A stretch of DNA of 35,370 bases from Burkholderiales bacterium. GTDB lineage: Bacteria > Pseudomonadota > Gammaproteobacteria > Burkholderiales > SG8-39. The position numbers and the translations under genes are program-made. The DNA lies in assembly GCA_014860355.1 (NCBI GenBank), contig JACZJV010000165.1, positions 1-35,370 on the forward strand, written 5' to 3'. Numbering within the stretch: position 1 is the first letter of the stretch; the number at the start of each line of letters is the position of its first letter. The notes under the pieces were generated by a model. It saw only the letters and a program-made list of their open reading frames with translations, was not told the DNA's origin and searched no databases. Positions 25,649-29,773 of this stretch are shown piece after piece.

Positions 25649-26071
25649 ATGAGCACGAGCAAGTTGACGGCGGCACTGTTGGCGGGAATGTTTTGCCTGT
25701 CCGTGGCGCAAGCCCAGGACAAGAAACCGGCCGACAAAGCCGCAGCGCCCGCGGCGCAAAAACAATCAAGCGCCCAGCAAAACAAGATGGCTGATTGCAA
25801 CAATGAAGCCGGCGCGAAACAACTCAAAGGCGACGAGCGCAAGCAGTTCATGAGCAGTTGCTTGAAGGGCGCAGATAGCGCACCCAAGACGGCGGCGGAA
25901 AAACCGGCGGCAGCCAAGGCCGCGGCAGAAAAACCGGCAGCAGCCAAGGTCGCGGCAGAAAAGCCCGCGGATCAGAAGCAGAAGATGGGTTTCTGCAACA
26001 AGGAAGCCGGCGCAAAGCAACTCAAGGGCGGCGAGCGCAAGAAATTCATGAGCGAGTGCCTCAAGGCCTAG
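25649..26071 (+). CDS. PsiF-repeat secreted protein
   Basis: 140 residues with a signal peptide (LTAALLAGMFCLSVAQAQ, cleavage before DKKPADK). It has two copies of a PsiF-type Cys motif, MADCNNEAGAKQLKGDERKQ and MGFCNKEAGAKQLKGGERKK, each ending in a second Cys (SSCLKG, SECLKA). Between them lies a linker of AAEKPAAAK repeats. E. coli PsiF is a phosphate-starvation-induced periplasmic protein of unknown function and carries the same motif. The strong ribosome binding site GGAG precedes the ATG. It has its own terminator and probably its own promoter, unrelated to the flanking hprK and rapZ. Confidence 0.88.
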   Translation: MSTSKLTAALLAGMFCLSVAQAQDKKPADKAAAPAAQKQSSAQQNKMADCNNEAGAKQLKGDERKQFMSSCLKGADSAPKTAAEKPAAAKAAAEKPAAAKVAAEKPADQKQKMGFCNKEAGAKQLKGGERKKFMSECLKA

Positions 26072-26200: not shown

Positions 26201-27037
26201 ATGCAACTAGTACTGATCAGCGGTCTGTCCGGTTCGGGCAAGAGCGTCGCGCTAAATGTGCTGGAGGACAGCGGCTACTACTGCGTGGACAATCTTCCGG
26301 TCGAACTGGTGGTGCCCTTGCTCGATTCGCTCACCGGCTCCGGCCATGAGCGCGTGGCGCTGAGCATGGACGCGCGCAGCGGCGCCTCGGTGCGCCGGCT
26401 GCCGCAGACCGTCGCGGTGCTCAAGCAGGCCGGGGTGGACGTGAGGCTGCTGTTCCTGGAGGCCAAGGACGAGACCCTGATCAAGCGTTTCTCCGAAACG
26501 CGGCGGCGCCATCCATTGAGCCGGGGCGGGCTTACCGTGGCCGAGAGCATCGCGCGCGAGCGCGAAGTTCTGGGCGATATAGGCGAATTCGGCCATCACA
26601 TCGATACCAGCGAACTCTCGCCCAACATCCTGCGCAGCTGGGTCAAGAACCTGGTCGAAATCGACCGCTCGCGCATGACGCTGTTGTTCGAGTCCTTCGG
26701 CTTCAAGCAGGGGATACCGCTGGACGCCGATTTCGTGTTCGACGTACGCTGTCTGCCCAACCCGTATTACGAACCCGGACTGCGCGAACTGACCGGCCTG
26801 GACGCCGCGGTCGCAGCCTTCCTGGAAAGCGACGAAGCGACGCAACACATGTATCGCGACATACACGCATTCATAGACACCTGGCTGCCCGCCTTCGTGC
26901 GCGAGAACCGCAGCTATCTGACGGTAGCCGTAGGTTGCACCGGCGGTCAGCACCGGTCGGTGTATTTCGCCGAGCGCCTGGGCGCGGCCTTCAGCGCCGC
27001 CAACCAGGTGATGATTCGGCACCGGCAGATCAAATGA
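26201..27037 (+). CDS. rapZ: RNase adapter/nucleotide-binding protein RapZ
   Basis: 278 residues. Walker A is GLSGSGKS (8-15), and the following VLEDSGYYCVDNLPVELV is a hallmark of the family. The C-terminal domain contains FDVRCLPNPYYEPGLRELTG and VGCTGGQHRSVYFAERL. In E. coli RapZ controls decay of the sRNA GlmZ and binds glucosamine 6-phosphate; in other bacteria the partner is unclear. It lies beside hprK-ptsN, interrupted here by the PsiF-like gene. The stop overlaps the ubiX start as ATGA. Confidence 0.96.
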   Translation: MQLVLISGLSGSGKSVALNVLEDSGYYCVDNLPVELVVPLLDSLTGSGHERVALSMDARSGASVRRLPQTVAVLKQAGVDVRLLFLEAKDETLIKRFSETRRRHPLSRGGLTVAESIAREREVLGDIGEFGHHIDTSELSPNILRSWVKNLVEIDRSRMTLLFESFGFKQGIPLDADFVFDVRCLPNPYYEPGLRELTGLDAAVAAFLESDEATQHMYRDIHAFIDTWLPAFVRENRSYLTVAVGCTGGQHRSVYFAERLGAAFSAANQVMIRHRQIK

Positions 27038-27639
27038 TCAAAACCGTCACGCTCGCCCTCACCGGCGCCTCCGGCATGGCCTATGGCATACGCCTGCTCG
27101 AATGCCTGCTCGCCGCCGGCGTGCGCGTCTACCTGATCTACTCGCAGGCGGCGCAGGTGGTGGCCAGGCAGGAGATGGACCTCACTCTGCCCGCGCGCAC
27201 CGCGGAGGCCGAAGCGCTGTTCAACGAACGCTTCAAGGCGCAGCCGGGCCAGCTGCGGGTGTTCGGACGCGAGGAATGGTTCGCGCCGGTGGCCTCGGGC
27301 TCCAATGCGCCGGATGTTATGGTGATCATCCCCTGCACCATAGGCACCCTGGCGGCGGTCGCTGCGGGGATGTCGGACAACCTGATCGAGCGCGCTGCGG
27401 ACGTCATGCTGAAGGAGGGGCGCAAGCTGGTGCTGGTGCCGCGCGAAACGCCTTTTTCCGCGATCCATCTGGAGGCCATGCTCAAGCTCGCGCACGCCGG
27501 CGCCGTGATCCTGCCGGCCAACCCGGGTTTCTACCACCGGCCGCAGAGCGTCGCCGCGGTGGTCGATTTCATCGTCGCGCGCGTGCTCGACCAGCTCGAC
27601 GTCGAGCACCAGCTGATGCAGCGCTGGGGCGAGAAATAG
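27034..27639 (+). CDS. ubiX: Flavin prenyltransferase UbiX
   Basis: 201 residues. The start at 27034 (MIKTVTLALTGASGMAYG) overlaps the rapZ stop as ATGA; an in-frame ATG further upstream would only add sequence inside rapZ. The domain is a flavoprotein with TGASGMAYGIRLLECL at the N-terminus, IIPCTIGTLAAVAAGMSDNL for phosphate and dimer contacts, LVLVPRETPFSAIHLEAML and the C-terminal NPGFYHRPQS. UbiX joins dimethylallyl phosphate to reduced FMN to make prenyl-FMN for UbiD-type decarboxylases in ubiquinone synthesis or aromatic-acid decarboxylation. UbiD is not in the window. Downstream lies the hairpin array. Confidence 0.95.
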   Translation: MIKTVTLALTGASGMAYGIRLLECLLAAGVRVYLIYSQAAQVVARQEMDLTLPARTAEAEALFNERFKAQPGQLRVFGREEWFAPVASGSNAPDVMVIIPCTIGTLAAVAAGMSDNLIERAADVMLKEGRKLVLVPRETPFSAIHLEAMLKLAHAGAVILPANPGFYHRPQSVAAVVDFIVARVLDQLDVEHQLMQRWGEK

Positions 27640-27706
27640 AACCAGCTCTGGCGCGACCGCTCGGCTGACCGCGCTTAAGTACCGTCGCATACGAGCAGCG
27701 GCCATT
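27640..27706. other. Unassigned intergenic stretch before the hairpin array
   Basis: No gene, strong hairpin or promoter is seen between the ubiX stop and the first repeat unit. Confidence 0.5.
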
Positions 27707-27722
27707 GCGCGCTGCGCGCGCC

Positions 27723-27773
27723 AACCGTGTTTTCTGCACGGATGAAAAACACATCCGTGCAGAAAACACGGTT
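27723..27773. repeat. Hairpin A of unit 1
   Basis: Perfect 22-bp stem at 27723-27744 and 27752-27773 with a 7-nt loop (aaaaaca). The outer end is aaccgtg, the inner end acggatg, the core ttttctgc. Confidence 0.9.
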
Positions 27774-27813
27774 ATTGATAAAAGCAAGGACAATGCAGGA
27801 GGGGCTTATACAA

Positions 27814-27864
27814 GATCCTCGATTGCGCACGGATGGGTTTTTCATCCGTGCGCAATCGAGGATC
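27814..27864. repeat. Hairpin B of unit 1
   Basis: Perfect 22-bp stem at 27814-27835 and 27843-27864 with a 7-nt loop (ggttttt). It begins gatcctcgattgcgc and ends acggatg at the apex. Confidence 0.9.
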
Positions 27865-27865
27865 C

Positions 27866-27910
27866 GCGCGGACGGCTTCTCGTCCGCGCAGGTTTTTGCA
27901 GGACCTGCGC
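27866..27910. repeat. Hairpins C and D of unit 1, mutually exclusive
   Basis: gcgcggacg (27866-27874) pairs with cgtccgcgc (27881-27889) as hairpin C. gcgcaggt (27886-27893) pairs with acctgcgc (27903-27910) as hairpin D. Both need bases 27886-27889, so only one of the two can form fully. Confidence 0.75.
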
Positions 27911-27922
27911 GCTGCGCGCGCC

Positions 27923-27971
27923 AACCGTGCTATTGGTACGGATAGACACCATCCGTACCAATAGCACGGTT
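27923..27971. repeat. Hairpin A of unit 2
   Basis: Perfect 21-bp stem at 27923-27943 and 27951-27971 with a 7-nt loop (agacacc). The ends aaccgtg and acggat are as in unit 1, but the core is ctattggt instead of ttttctgc, and both arms are changed together. Confidence 0.9.
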
Positions 27972-28009
27972 AGGGTTAACGCCAAACATAGCGCAAGGGT
28001 TTAATCCAA

Positions 28010-28061
28010 GATCGCCGATTGCACGCGGATGTGCTTTTTCATCCGTGCGCAATCGGCGATC
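28010..28061. repeat. Hairpin B of unit 2
   Basis: 22-bp stem at 28010-28031 and 28040-28061 with an 8-nt loop; 20 of 22 pairs match. The right arm is canonical (catccgtgcgc), the left arm has gcacgcgg where gcgcacgg is expected. Confidence 0.85.
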
Positions 28062-28062
28062 C

Positions 28063-28107
28063 GCGCGGACGGCTTCTCGTCCGCGCAGGTTTTTGCACGA
28101 CCTGCGC
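28063..28107. repeat. Hairpins C and D of unit 2
   Basis: Same layout as unit 1: hairpin C at 28063-28071 and 28078-28086, hairpin D at 28083-28090 and 28100-28107, overlapping at 28083-28086. The loop of D has c in place of g. Confidence 0.75.
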
Positions 28108-28132
28108 GCTGCGCGCAAGCCATGGCAGCCTG

Positions 28133-29773
28133 CTAACCCATCTGGCGCAGCTTGAAGCGCTGCAGTTTGCCGGTTTCGGTCCGCGGCAGCGAATCCACGA
28201 ACTTGACCGAGCGCGGATACTTGTATGCCGCGATGGTCTTCTTCACGAACTCCTGCAGCTCCCTCGCCATCGGCTCGTTGCCGGTGTAGCCCGGCTTGAG
28301 CACCACGCAGGCCTTCACGATCTGGCCGCGTTCCACATCCGGCTCTCCAACTACGCCGCATTCGGCCACGGCTGGATGCTGCAGCAGCGACGCCTCGACT
28401 TCGGGTCCGGCGATGTTGTAGCCGGCAGAAATGATCATGTCGTCGGTGCGCGCCTGGTAATAGAAATAGCCGTCCGCATCCATCCTGTAGGCATCGCCGG
28501 TAAGGTTCCAGCCGCGCAAAGCTCCTGCGCTGACCACATAGTCCTTCTGGCGCTGGTCGGCGAGGTAGCGGCAGCCCGTAGGGCCCATTACCGCGAGCCG
28601 CCCGACCACCCCGGGCGCGCAGGGCTTGCCGGTTTCGTCAATCACCGTCGCCCGGTAACCCGGGATGGCGTAACCGGTCGCGCCGCGGCGCACGCGCTCG
28701 GGCGTGTGCGAAATGAAAATATGGATCATCTCGGTCGCGCCTATGCCGTCGATGATCTCGATGCCGCTCGCCTGCTTGAACAGTTGGCGCGTGGCGTCGG
28801 GCAGGGCTTCGCCCGCGGATACGCATTTTTTCAGGCTGCGCAGGTCGTAGCTCGCGGCCAGGCCGGCCATCTGCCGATAGTAGGTCGGAGCCGTGAAGCA
28901 GATCGTCGCCTTCATCTTCTGGATGGTCGCGAGCAAGGAGTCCGGGCTGAGCCTTTCCATCAGCACCGTGGATGCGCCGAAACGCATGGGAAAGCACAGC
29001 AGGCCGCCCAGCCCGAAGGTAAACGCGAGCGGCGGCGTACCGCAGAAAATGTCATTCTGCGTCGGCTTCAGGCAGGAGCGCGGGAAACAGTCGCACATGG
29101 CCAGCACGTCGCGATGAAAGTGCACCGTGCCTTTTGGGCGTCCCGTAGTGCCCGAGGTGAAGGCGATCAGGCAGGGATCGTCGGCCGCGGTATCGACGTT
29201 GTCGAACGCAGTCGGCTTCGCCGCGAGCATTTGTTCGAGCGAGCCGGCGCCGCCGCCGTTGAAATAGAGCACCTGCTTCAGGTCCGGGCACCCGGTCCGC
29301 GCCAGCTCCATTTCGTCTTTCAGGCGCAGGTCGCATAGCGCGGCGCCGACCCTGGCCTTGTCGATGATCTGTTTGAGTTCGGTCGCGCGCAACAGCGGCA
29401 TGGTGGGCACCGCCACCAGTCCGGCTTTTACCACCGCCAGCCAGCAGGCCGCCATCATCGGATTGTTGGGCGCGCGCAGCAGCACGCGATTCCCGGTCCT
29501 GAGCTTCAGATCCCCGCTGAGCACATGCGCAATCTGGTTGGCGCGAGCCAGCAACGCCTCGTAGGTGCAGGAATAGGCCTTGCCGTCCACCAGGGCGTGG
29601 ATAAGGGCGCGCCCGCCGTGACCGGTCGCGACCATCCTGTCGAGCAGCTCGGCGGCACAGTTCAGGCGCCTGGGATACTGCAATTCTGGAAATTCGAAAA
29701 CCAGTTTCGGCCACTGGCTTTTCGGCGGCAGCCTGTCCCTGACAAACGTATCGATGTGAGCCGTAGCTTCCAT
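28133..29773 (-). CDS. Acyl/aryl-CoA ligase, benzoate-CoA ligase type (ANL superfamily)
   Basis: 546 residues. ATP-binding motif FTSGTTGRPKGTVHFH (A3), GATEMIHIF region (A5), LTGDAYRMDADGYFYYQART (A7), and a C-terminal SLPRTETGKLQRFKLRQ with the catalytic Lys. The sequence type, including GNRVLLRAPNNPMMAACWLA and IFGTPP-like IFCGTPPLAFTFGLGGLL, resembles benzoate- or 2-aminobenzoate-CoA ligases. It would activate an aromatic or related acid to its CoA thioester with ATP. GGAG is found upstream of the ATG. The substrate is not decided by sequence; the nearby acyl-CoA dehydrogenase and dienelactone hydrolase suggest a catabolic route. Confidence 0.85.
   Translation of the reverse strand: MEATAHIDTFVRDRLPPKSQWPKLVFEFPELQYPRRLNCAAELLDRMVATGHGGRALIHALVDGKAYSCTYEALLARANQIAHVLSGDLKLRTGNRVLLRAPNNPMMAACWLAVVKAGLVAVPTMPLLRATELKQIIDKARVGAALCDLRLKDEMELARTGCPDLKQVLYFNGGGAGSLEQMLAAKPTAFDNVDTAADDPCLIAFTSGTTGRPKGTVHFHRDVLAMCDCFPRSCLKPTQNDIFCGTPPLAFTFGLGGLLCFPMRFGASTVLMERLSPDSLLATIQKMKATICFTAPTYYRQMAGLAASYDLRSLKKCVSAGEALPDATRQLFKQASGIEIIDGIGATEMIHIFISHTPERVRRGATGYAIPGYRATVIDETGKPCAPGVVGRLAVMGPTGCRYLADQRQKDYVVSAGALRGWNLTGDAYRMDADGYFYYQARTDDMIISAGYNIAGPEVEASLLQHPAVAECGVVGEPDVERGQIVKACVVLKPGYTGNEPMARELQEFVKKTIAAYKYPRSVKFVDSLPRTETGKLQRFKLRQMG

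Follow-up and report, generated by a model that had tools for sequence, protein, structure and literature searches.

A tandem repeat of probable MITE type with a conserved folded core behind genes in a Burkholderiales genus

Results

A folded tandem array lies between two convergent genes

The window analyzed here, a 35,370-nt stretch of contig JACZJV010000165.1 from a Burkholderiales bacterium, contains an array of two head-to-tail units of ~184 nt (each with hairpins A, B, and C) followed by the first box of a third unit (27707–28116). Profile matches identify the neighboring genes as the initial annotation had named them, a convergent ubiX and CoA ligase pair; the product of 28133–29683 scores just below the cut-off of TIGR02262 and above those of PF00501 and PF13193. 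Each unit reads in the order GC box (GCGCGCTGCGCGC), hairpin A (21–22 bp), a linker of ~40 nt, hairpin B (22 bp), and hairpin C (~10 bp). The GCGCGCTGCGCGC boxes start at 27707, 27907, and 28104, and the unit copies are offset by 200 bp when measured from the 5' side and by 197 bp from the 3' side. The features of the locus are as follows.

27034–27639, + strand: UbiX-family flavin prenyltransferase gene, upstream neighbor
27669–27706, + strand: worn left arm, in which the left terminal inverted repeat and its subterminal arm survive in part (27674–27717 matches the left-arm consensus at 84%)
27707–27720, + strand: GC box of unit 1, GCGCGCTGCGCGC (box divergence between orthologues, 7%)
27723–27773, + strand: hairpin A of unit 1, 22-bp stem and 7-nt loop (pairing; covariation in the family)
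27774–27813, + strand: linker of unit 1, its end overlapping a TTATACAAG motif
27814–27864, + strand: hairpin B of unit 1, 22-bp stem with GATC at the stem base (pairing; covariation in the family)
27866–27889, + strand: hairpin C of unit 1 (pairing; compensated version in another genus, L307)
27890–27906, + strand: 17-nt junction between units, AGGTTTTTGCAGGACCT, type R3
27907–27920, + strand: GC box of unit 2
27923–27971, + strand: hairpin A of unit 2, 21-bp stem
27972–28009, + strand: linker of unit 2
28010–28061, + strand: hairpin B of unit 2, 91% paired
28063–28086, + strand: hairpin C of unit 2
28087–28103, + strand: second R3 junction
28104–28116, + strand: GC box of the third, truncated unit
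28133–29683, − strand: benzoate-CoA-ligase-type AMP-binding enzyme gene, downstream and convergent

Pairing is complete in both long hairpins of unit 1 (22/22 in A, arms 27723–27744 and 27752–27773; 22/22 in B, arms 27814–27835 and 27843–27864) and in hairpin A of unit 2 (21/21, arms 27923–27943 and 27951–27971), and reaches 91% in hairpin B of unit 2 (arms 28010–28031 and 28040–28061). These coordinates bear out the initial description of two 197–200 bp units with 21–22 bp stems, a short hairpin, and the start of a third unit. Two of its details need correction. The statement that almost every base can pair is wrong, as the family alignment yields no consensus structure for the ~40-nt linker that separates A from B, and the element begins before the proposed start at 27707, with the worn left arm at about 27669–27706. 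On the 3' side of the third GC box (28104–28116), we found no recognizable right arm or terminal inverted repeat.

Folded as RNA, one window unit gave a z-score of −11.7, with none of 200 shuffles folding equally well; the 410-nt array folded as DNA gave −19.6, with none of 100 shuffles matching it. These scores and the lack of matching shuffles exclude chance as the source of the window fold. No Rfam family exceeded its gathering score for the window element. Sixteen of the 20 sub-threshold Rfam matches (E up to 1; best 50 bits against a gathering score of 90) were miRNA hairpin models, which we read as chance matches to long perfect stems.

Several further sequence features were observed. 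A GATC (Dam-type) site lies at the base of both arms of hairpin B (27814–27817 and 27861–27864) and is nearly invariant across the family. The linker borders at 27772–27780 (− strand) and 27806–27814 (+ strand) are DnaA-box-like, with TTATMCAAG on + and a TTATCCATA-like sequence on −, and such sequences occupy the same place in other copies; they resemble TTATNCACA, which we take to be the DnaA box. Elsewhere in the window, a 30-bp tandem repeat (25880–25970, three copies at 85%) lies upstream of a RapZ gene.

The element is repeated throughout one genus

A covariance model built from 110 copies of the element was searched against the window's own genome (G000). Its 148 rows resolved, with opposite-strand echoes excluded, into at least 90 non-overlapping units at 76 sites on 54 contigs; 150 of 4,970 candidates were scored, and more units may exist. 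Scores were 130 bits or higher for 52 units, between 60 and 130 for 34, and below 60 for four (86 at 60 or higher). At fourteen sites there are two units, which share one direction in every case. Searched at the DNA level, with 40 of 132 candidates scored, the same genome returned at least 63 match rows.

By DNA search, the element is present in all 14 genus members (own genome included) and in four of the 22 family genomes searched outside the genus (in two of these by weak matches only); none of 24 genomes from other families contains it. Copy number varies, with a single matching place in the 99% complete G012. Among 300 genomes drawn from the order, a draw that included few genus members, the covariance model, run under stricter filters, matched only G000 and G027. 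A pattern scan of public genomes returned at least 92 stretches, and the titles among the matches listed all named MAGs of Betaproteobacteria, Burkholderiales, or 'Proteobacteria'. Part of these loci match loci of the genus identically (L051/L061, L057/L113), and on these grounds we label the element as one of Burkholderiales. Because the scan pattern fixes part of B and C, the loci it retrieves favor an intact C. Searches of plasmid and phage collections gave no match to the element. In copies from other genera, the order of parts is preserved and the stem sequences differ; hairpin C of G025 has GCACGAACG/CGTTCGTGC where GCGCGGACG/CGTCCGCGC is usual, a compensated change. The initial annotation had reasoned that an array with no other copy and no covariation would be a simple local duplication. 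The opposite was found on both points, and the search of the genome and its relatives that it proposed revealed many intergenic copies, with copy number differing between relatives.

At the window locus itself, a single complete copy is present in G003, and in G008 a copy is cut off within its first box by the end of the contig. The gene pair is retained and the element absent in G004 and G012; in G013 and G010 the neighbor gene differs and there is no copy. The element-free convergent gap after the UbiX-type gene in G004 (L258) contains a short GC hairpin with T's behind it, which on visual inspection may be an ordinary terminator. Three loci of the window's genome (L012, L029, and L039) share an alternative left end, GCGCCGCGAAGCAAGTCCTC then GGGGGACGCGCGCC, and apparently form a sub-family with an altered GC box.

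Better-preserved copies end in inverted repeats flanked by TA

The better-preserved copies are ~275 bp long, with imperfect terminal inverted repeats (TIRs) of ~19 nt (TATAC-GGCGnCTTAAAT) flanked by TA, and many single copies run into conserved arms with imperfect inverted repeats at their ends. The end consensus is TATAC-GGCGTCTTAAAT on the left and ATTTAAGTCGCCACGTATA on the right; only 41 of 159 left ends and 31 of 171 right ends satisfy strict TIR patterns. Allowing up to three mismatches, the right-TIR pattern occurs 49 times in 6 of 14 genomes and its reversed control not at all. A core match accompanied it at 29 of the 30 loci opened, the exception lying at a contig end. No G000 copy matches the right-TIR pattern, suggesting that this genome's copies are old. 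A loose pattern identified both ends of 23 copies, of which 19 measure 264–280 bp and 14 have TA before the left end. L239 has a second end pair with nearly the whole core gone.

Filled and empty sites were compared directly. An insertion in G005 lies four bases after the in-frame TGA of the upstream gene, and its joined flanks align without a junction gap to G000, G003, G008, and G009, which thus have empty sites of equal length; the site in G007 contains unrelated extra bases (10 of the 14 genomes gave any flank match and four gave none). The four empty relatives lack TA at this site, and the TA duplication is therefore read from the filled G005 copy. L068 and L128 form a second TA-flanked filled/empty pair; at the further empty sites in that comparison, the junction is too diverged to be read. 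Overall, 11 of 193 directed locus comparisons were filled versus empty. One orthologous locus (L131:4853–5038, L084:4250–4500, and L138:5096–5322) has the element in opposite orientation in one genome, the result of either a local inversion or an independent insertion.

A conserved outer closing stem was considered and rejected. Pairing of each copy's own left and right flanks (−40.9 kcal/mol) exceeded that of swapped flanks (−40.1 kcal/mol; sd 0.51, 86 copies) by just 1.6 permutation standard deviations, and given this weak advantage we read the flanks as TIRs rather than as a closing stem. DDE_3 (PF13358) matches occur in 4 of 14 genomes, and none of the eight DDE_3 loci opened has the element's TIRs, arguing against an IS630-type partner. 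Across the DDE_3 and Y1 families searched, no transposase or autonomous relative carrying these TIRs was found. At L152:1011–1188 (G010), pieces of the element lie ~300 bp from a Y1 (IS200-type) transposase gene.

Units also differ by what follows them. Those followed by a TIR arm (R1) have a T-rich C-loop in 44 of 48 cases, and those followed by another type of arm (R2) have a GGCSCC-type C-loop in 42 of 43, with a further unit 50–69 nt on in 22 of the 43. Eight of the 10 units with a short junction (R3, the type in the window) precede another unit; 98 units fall in none of these classes. By these patterns, the element occurs both as monomers and as dimers of fixed order, and its terminal units are of a different type from its internal ones.

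Pairing in the core is maintained at orthologous loci

In the alignment of 110 copies, standard pairs fill 97.8% of the pair cells. Two-sided changes occupy 378 cells, compared with 87 in shuffles and 17–43 with slid partners. Loop-proximal stem bases, the GC box, and stem C are nearly invariant; with so little variation, stem C and the box neither support nor oppose pairing. Copies were recognized by their core, and decayed or lost cores are thus under-counted in these conservation figures.

To follow change at fixed loci, we used an orthologue set of 20 same-locus pairs in two genomes, which leaves out identical copies and tandem neighbors and in which flanks are 88% identical on average. 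The unpaired parts have diverged by 33–36% (arms), 32% (linker), and 16–21% (loops), compared with 11–12% in stems A and B, 7% in the box, and 3.6% in stem C. Of the two-sided changes in the stems, 56 are Watson-Crick (33 in A and 23 in B) and eight are of other kinds; one-sided changes number 68, divided 21, 36, and 11 among A, B, and C. The 56 double changes consist of 44 transitions and 12 transversions, compared with 163 and 150 at unpaired sites, an excess of transitions expected if the stems stayed paired by passing through wobble pairs. Counted per hairpin, double changes follow a roughly Poisson distribution in A (mean 1.65, variance 1.92) and show some clustering in B (mean 1.15, variance 1.71). 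A separate, hand-picked set of 18 pairs contains 64 double and 48 one-sided changes.

Paralogues within a genome are more distant than orthologues, with 3.06 versus 1.65 double changes in A and a linker divergence of 46% versus 32%. That orthologues are closer in both stems and linker argues against wholesale conversion or block replacement. Given the contrast between arms (33–36%) and stems (4–12%) and the 56 compensatory changes, the core looks selected in place, its predicted folding kept at each locus after insertion.

Hairpins A and B have mirror-image mismatch biases

Mismatches in hairpin B are mostly G-U (95, versus 36 A-C), and those in hairpin A mostly A-C (54, versus 26 G-U; 133 copies, which are not independent; Fisher 1e-8). 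One-sided orthologue changes follow the same division, with G-U versus A-C counts of 22 and 8 in B and of 5 and 12 in A. The consensus tips read CGGATGAAAAGCGCATCCG in A and CGGATGTGCTTTTCATCCG in B, and from its sequence A looks like a diverged inverted copy of B. In many copies, a TTTTATMCA-like motif precedes both hairpins, reading outward. Given this mirror-image bias, each half behaves as though folded on the strand that runs outward from it. This wobble bias does not change with the direction of the flanking genes (p 0.76 and 0.78), which weakens plain 3'-UTR and plain terminator readings.

The element is placed behind genes

Placement was assessed with a codon-model gene caller on loci fetched for carrying the element, some of which are duplicates of one genome under two ids. 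After seven low-scoring arrays were dropped from 161, 154 remained, 24 of them lacking a neighbor on one side. None of the 154 overlaps a gene by more than 30 bp. The 130 arrays with both neighbors comprise 42 convergent, 84 codirectional, and four divergent contexts, compared with 26, 169, and 72 among element-free gaps of at least 50 nt. Codirectional arrays divide 47 to 37 by orientation. Facing stop codons lie 40–69 nt from the core in 42 of 89 cases on the left and 41 of 79 on the right, about where the arms end. Non-Watson-Crick pairs in hairpin A are rarer between convergent genes (2.2%) than in the other contexts (5.4% and 3.8%); hairpin B has no such trend (5.7, 5.5, and 5.2%). No promoter-like site was found in the element, and its U-tracts are weak.

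Discussion

A MITE-like element with a constrained core

We consider the window array probably to be a composite (tandem) copy of a small, non-autonomous, TA-inserting MITE-like element whose core is kept by selection. The TIRs, TA, precise empty site, size, and copy number support filing it as MITE-like. TIRs are present, though worn in many copies and, by the strict right-end pattern, in all G000 copies; TA duplication at a precise insertion is read in G005 and L068/L128, and TA precedes the left end in 14 of 23 copies; and the element is shorter than 500 bp, numerous, and intergenic. The suggestion in the initial annotation of a non-autonomous mobile repeat, of MITE or REP/BIME type, thus gains support from the copies and their differing number, the TIRs with TA, and the filled and empty sites. 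Its alternative of a structured RNA survives in part, as a possible function of the core, since stem pairing is conserved by compensatory change, and its recombination-site array received no specific support.

The complete form, as we reconstruct it, would consist of ~19-nt imperfect TIRs flanked by TA, subterminal arms, and a 183-nt core. This core may be viewed as a dyad of two outward units, B on the + strand and A on the − strand, each comprising a TTTTATMCA-like motif, a 21–22-bp hairpin, and a GC-rich box, with hairpin C in addition. A transposase acting in trans would move the element through its TIRs. After insertion, as divergence rates suggest, the TIR arms would decay while selection preserves core folding at each locus.

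At gene 3' ends, in either orientation, the core could act in folded form, as RNA or as a single strand, and influence mRNA 3' ends, mRNA stability, or read-through between neighboring genes, a role we find plausible and propose tentatively. More speculatively, a transposed folded cassette might have been adopted across the genus as a 3'-end module that works in either orientation. Selection would then keep it at ~76 sites in one genome, its two mirror-image half-sites would each serve their own outward strand, and the ends needed for transposition would be left to decay.

Alternative explanations

A folded gene-end element appears to be the best guess, and transposition alone its main rival. 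The element could be a purely selfish MITE, its fold aiding its own spread through transposase binding or protection, with other insertions purged and the pairing a reflection of source copies. The TIRs, TA, and empty sites agree with this account, as do the lack of a clear orientation preference beside codirectional genes and a wobble bias tied to the hairpin and not to gene direction. It is nonetheless somewhat unlikely, given that arms at orthologous loci decay by about a third while stem C hardly changes and A and B change largely by compensated pairs. This contrast at fixed loci requires either constraint after insertion or efficient arm-to-arm correction.

Pairing could also be kept by a mutational process, with one palindrome arm copied from the other in replication (template switching) and no selection involved. 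Two-sided Watson-Crick changes do rival the one-sided ones in number (57 of the latter are in A and B). We nevertheless regard this explanation as improbable, because compensatory changes are dominated by transitions where unpaired sites are not, one-sided changes are biased to wobble on one strand per hairpin, and hardly any variation is seen in the stem bases next to the loop, in the box, or in stem C.

Slightly less probable again is a simple bidirectional intrinsic transcription terminator. The element lies behind genes, is enriched between convergent ones, and has six loose terminator-like matches (0.9 in shuffles) that include A on + and B on −. Against this, the stems are followed by mixed tails (TTATTGATAA, TCTTGTATAA), and hairpin A read on the + strand tolerates A-C over G-U (54 versus 26), the reverse of what would be expected of an RNA hairpin on that strand.

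Finally, A and B could be inverted REPs recognized as single-strand hairpins and moved by a RAYT (Y1 HUH transposase), as in REPINs; this is very unlikely, for although A and B are inverted relatives with mirror-image mismatch bias and Y1 proteins occur in 26 of 36 genomes searched, the stems are 21–22 bp, GTAG/CGTC tags are absent beside them, the ends are TIRs with TA, G003 (89% complete) has many copies and no Y1 match, and the RAYT link is rejected with the element near 1 of 20 opened Y1 loci (L152).

The host function of bacterial interspersed palindromes is a long-open question. Orthologous copies of the folded gene-end element allow the decay of its mobile parts to be told apart from the constraint on its core, making this question testable, and the element provides a marker and search model for a little-known Burkholderiales genus.

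Comparison with known systems

We found no earlier description of this element family in the open-licence literature, and one may be in print elsewhere. The following comparisons draw on excerpts of the cited articles. The element resembles REP/BIME/REPIN sequences in its inverted palindrome pair, extragenic location, tandem clusters, and compensatory changes, and differs from them, as excerpted, in having 21–22-bp rather than 5–13-bp stems, TIRs with TA, and no RAYT link (PMC3116915, PMC3733652). A REP is defined in the excerpt by a GTAG or CGTC tag beside the stem (PMC3733652). The flanks of our stems are instead TTTTATMCA and the GC box, and we reject REP membership on tag, stem length, and RAYT link, the intergenic placement being alike.

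Correia/NEMIS, ERIC, and RUP are TA-inserting MITEs, and for Correia and ERIC the excerpts report effects of RNase III or RNase E (PMC2229807, PMC10969869). Like the element, they are small, have TIRs with TA, and occur in tens to hundreds of mostly intergenic copies; their transcripts are folded, a likeness that for our element is a predicted fold (PMC2229807, PMC10969869). According to the excerpted review they fold by end-to-end pairing, whereas the conserved structure here is internal, comprising two long hairpins and a short one, and occurs in tandem units.

CIR repeats of Caulobacter and Brucella are ~110 bp long, belong to alphaproteobacteria, and carry a conserved GANTC methylation site at the loop (Chen and Shapiro 2003, as excerpted from the review PMC2229807). 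GANTC is absent from the core consensus of our element, which also differs in its Burkholderiales host, its TIRs, and its size, a 183-nt core within ~275 bp (compared with PMC2229807, in part). As far as the excerpted review describes them, both have two long hairpin arms joined by a linker, an intergenic location, TA at the termini, and a conserved fold (PMC2229807), and it is to CIR repeats that the layout of the element is nearest.
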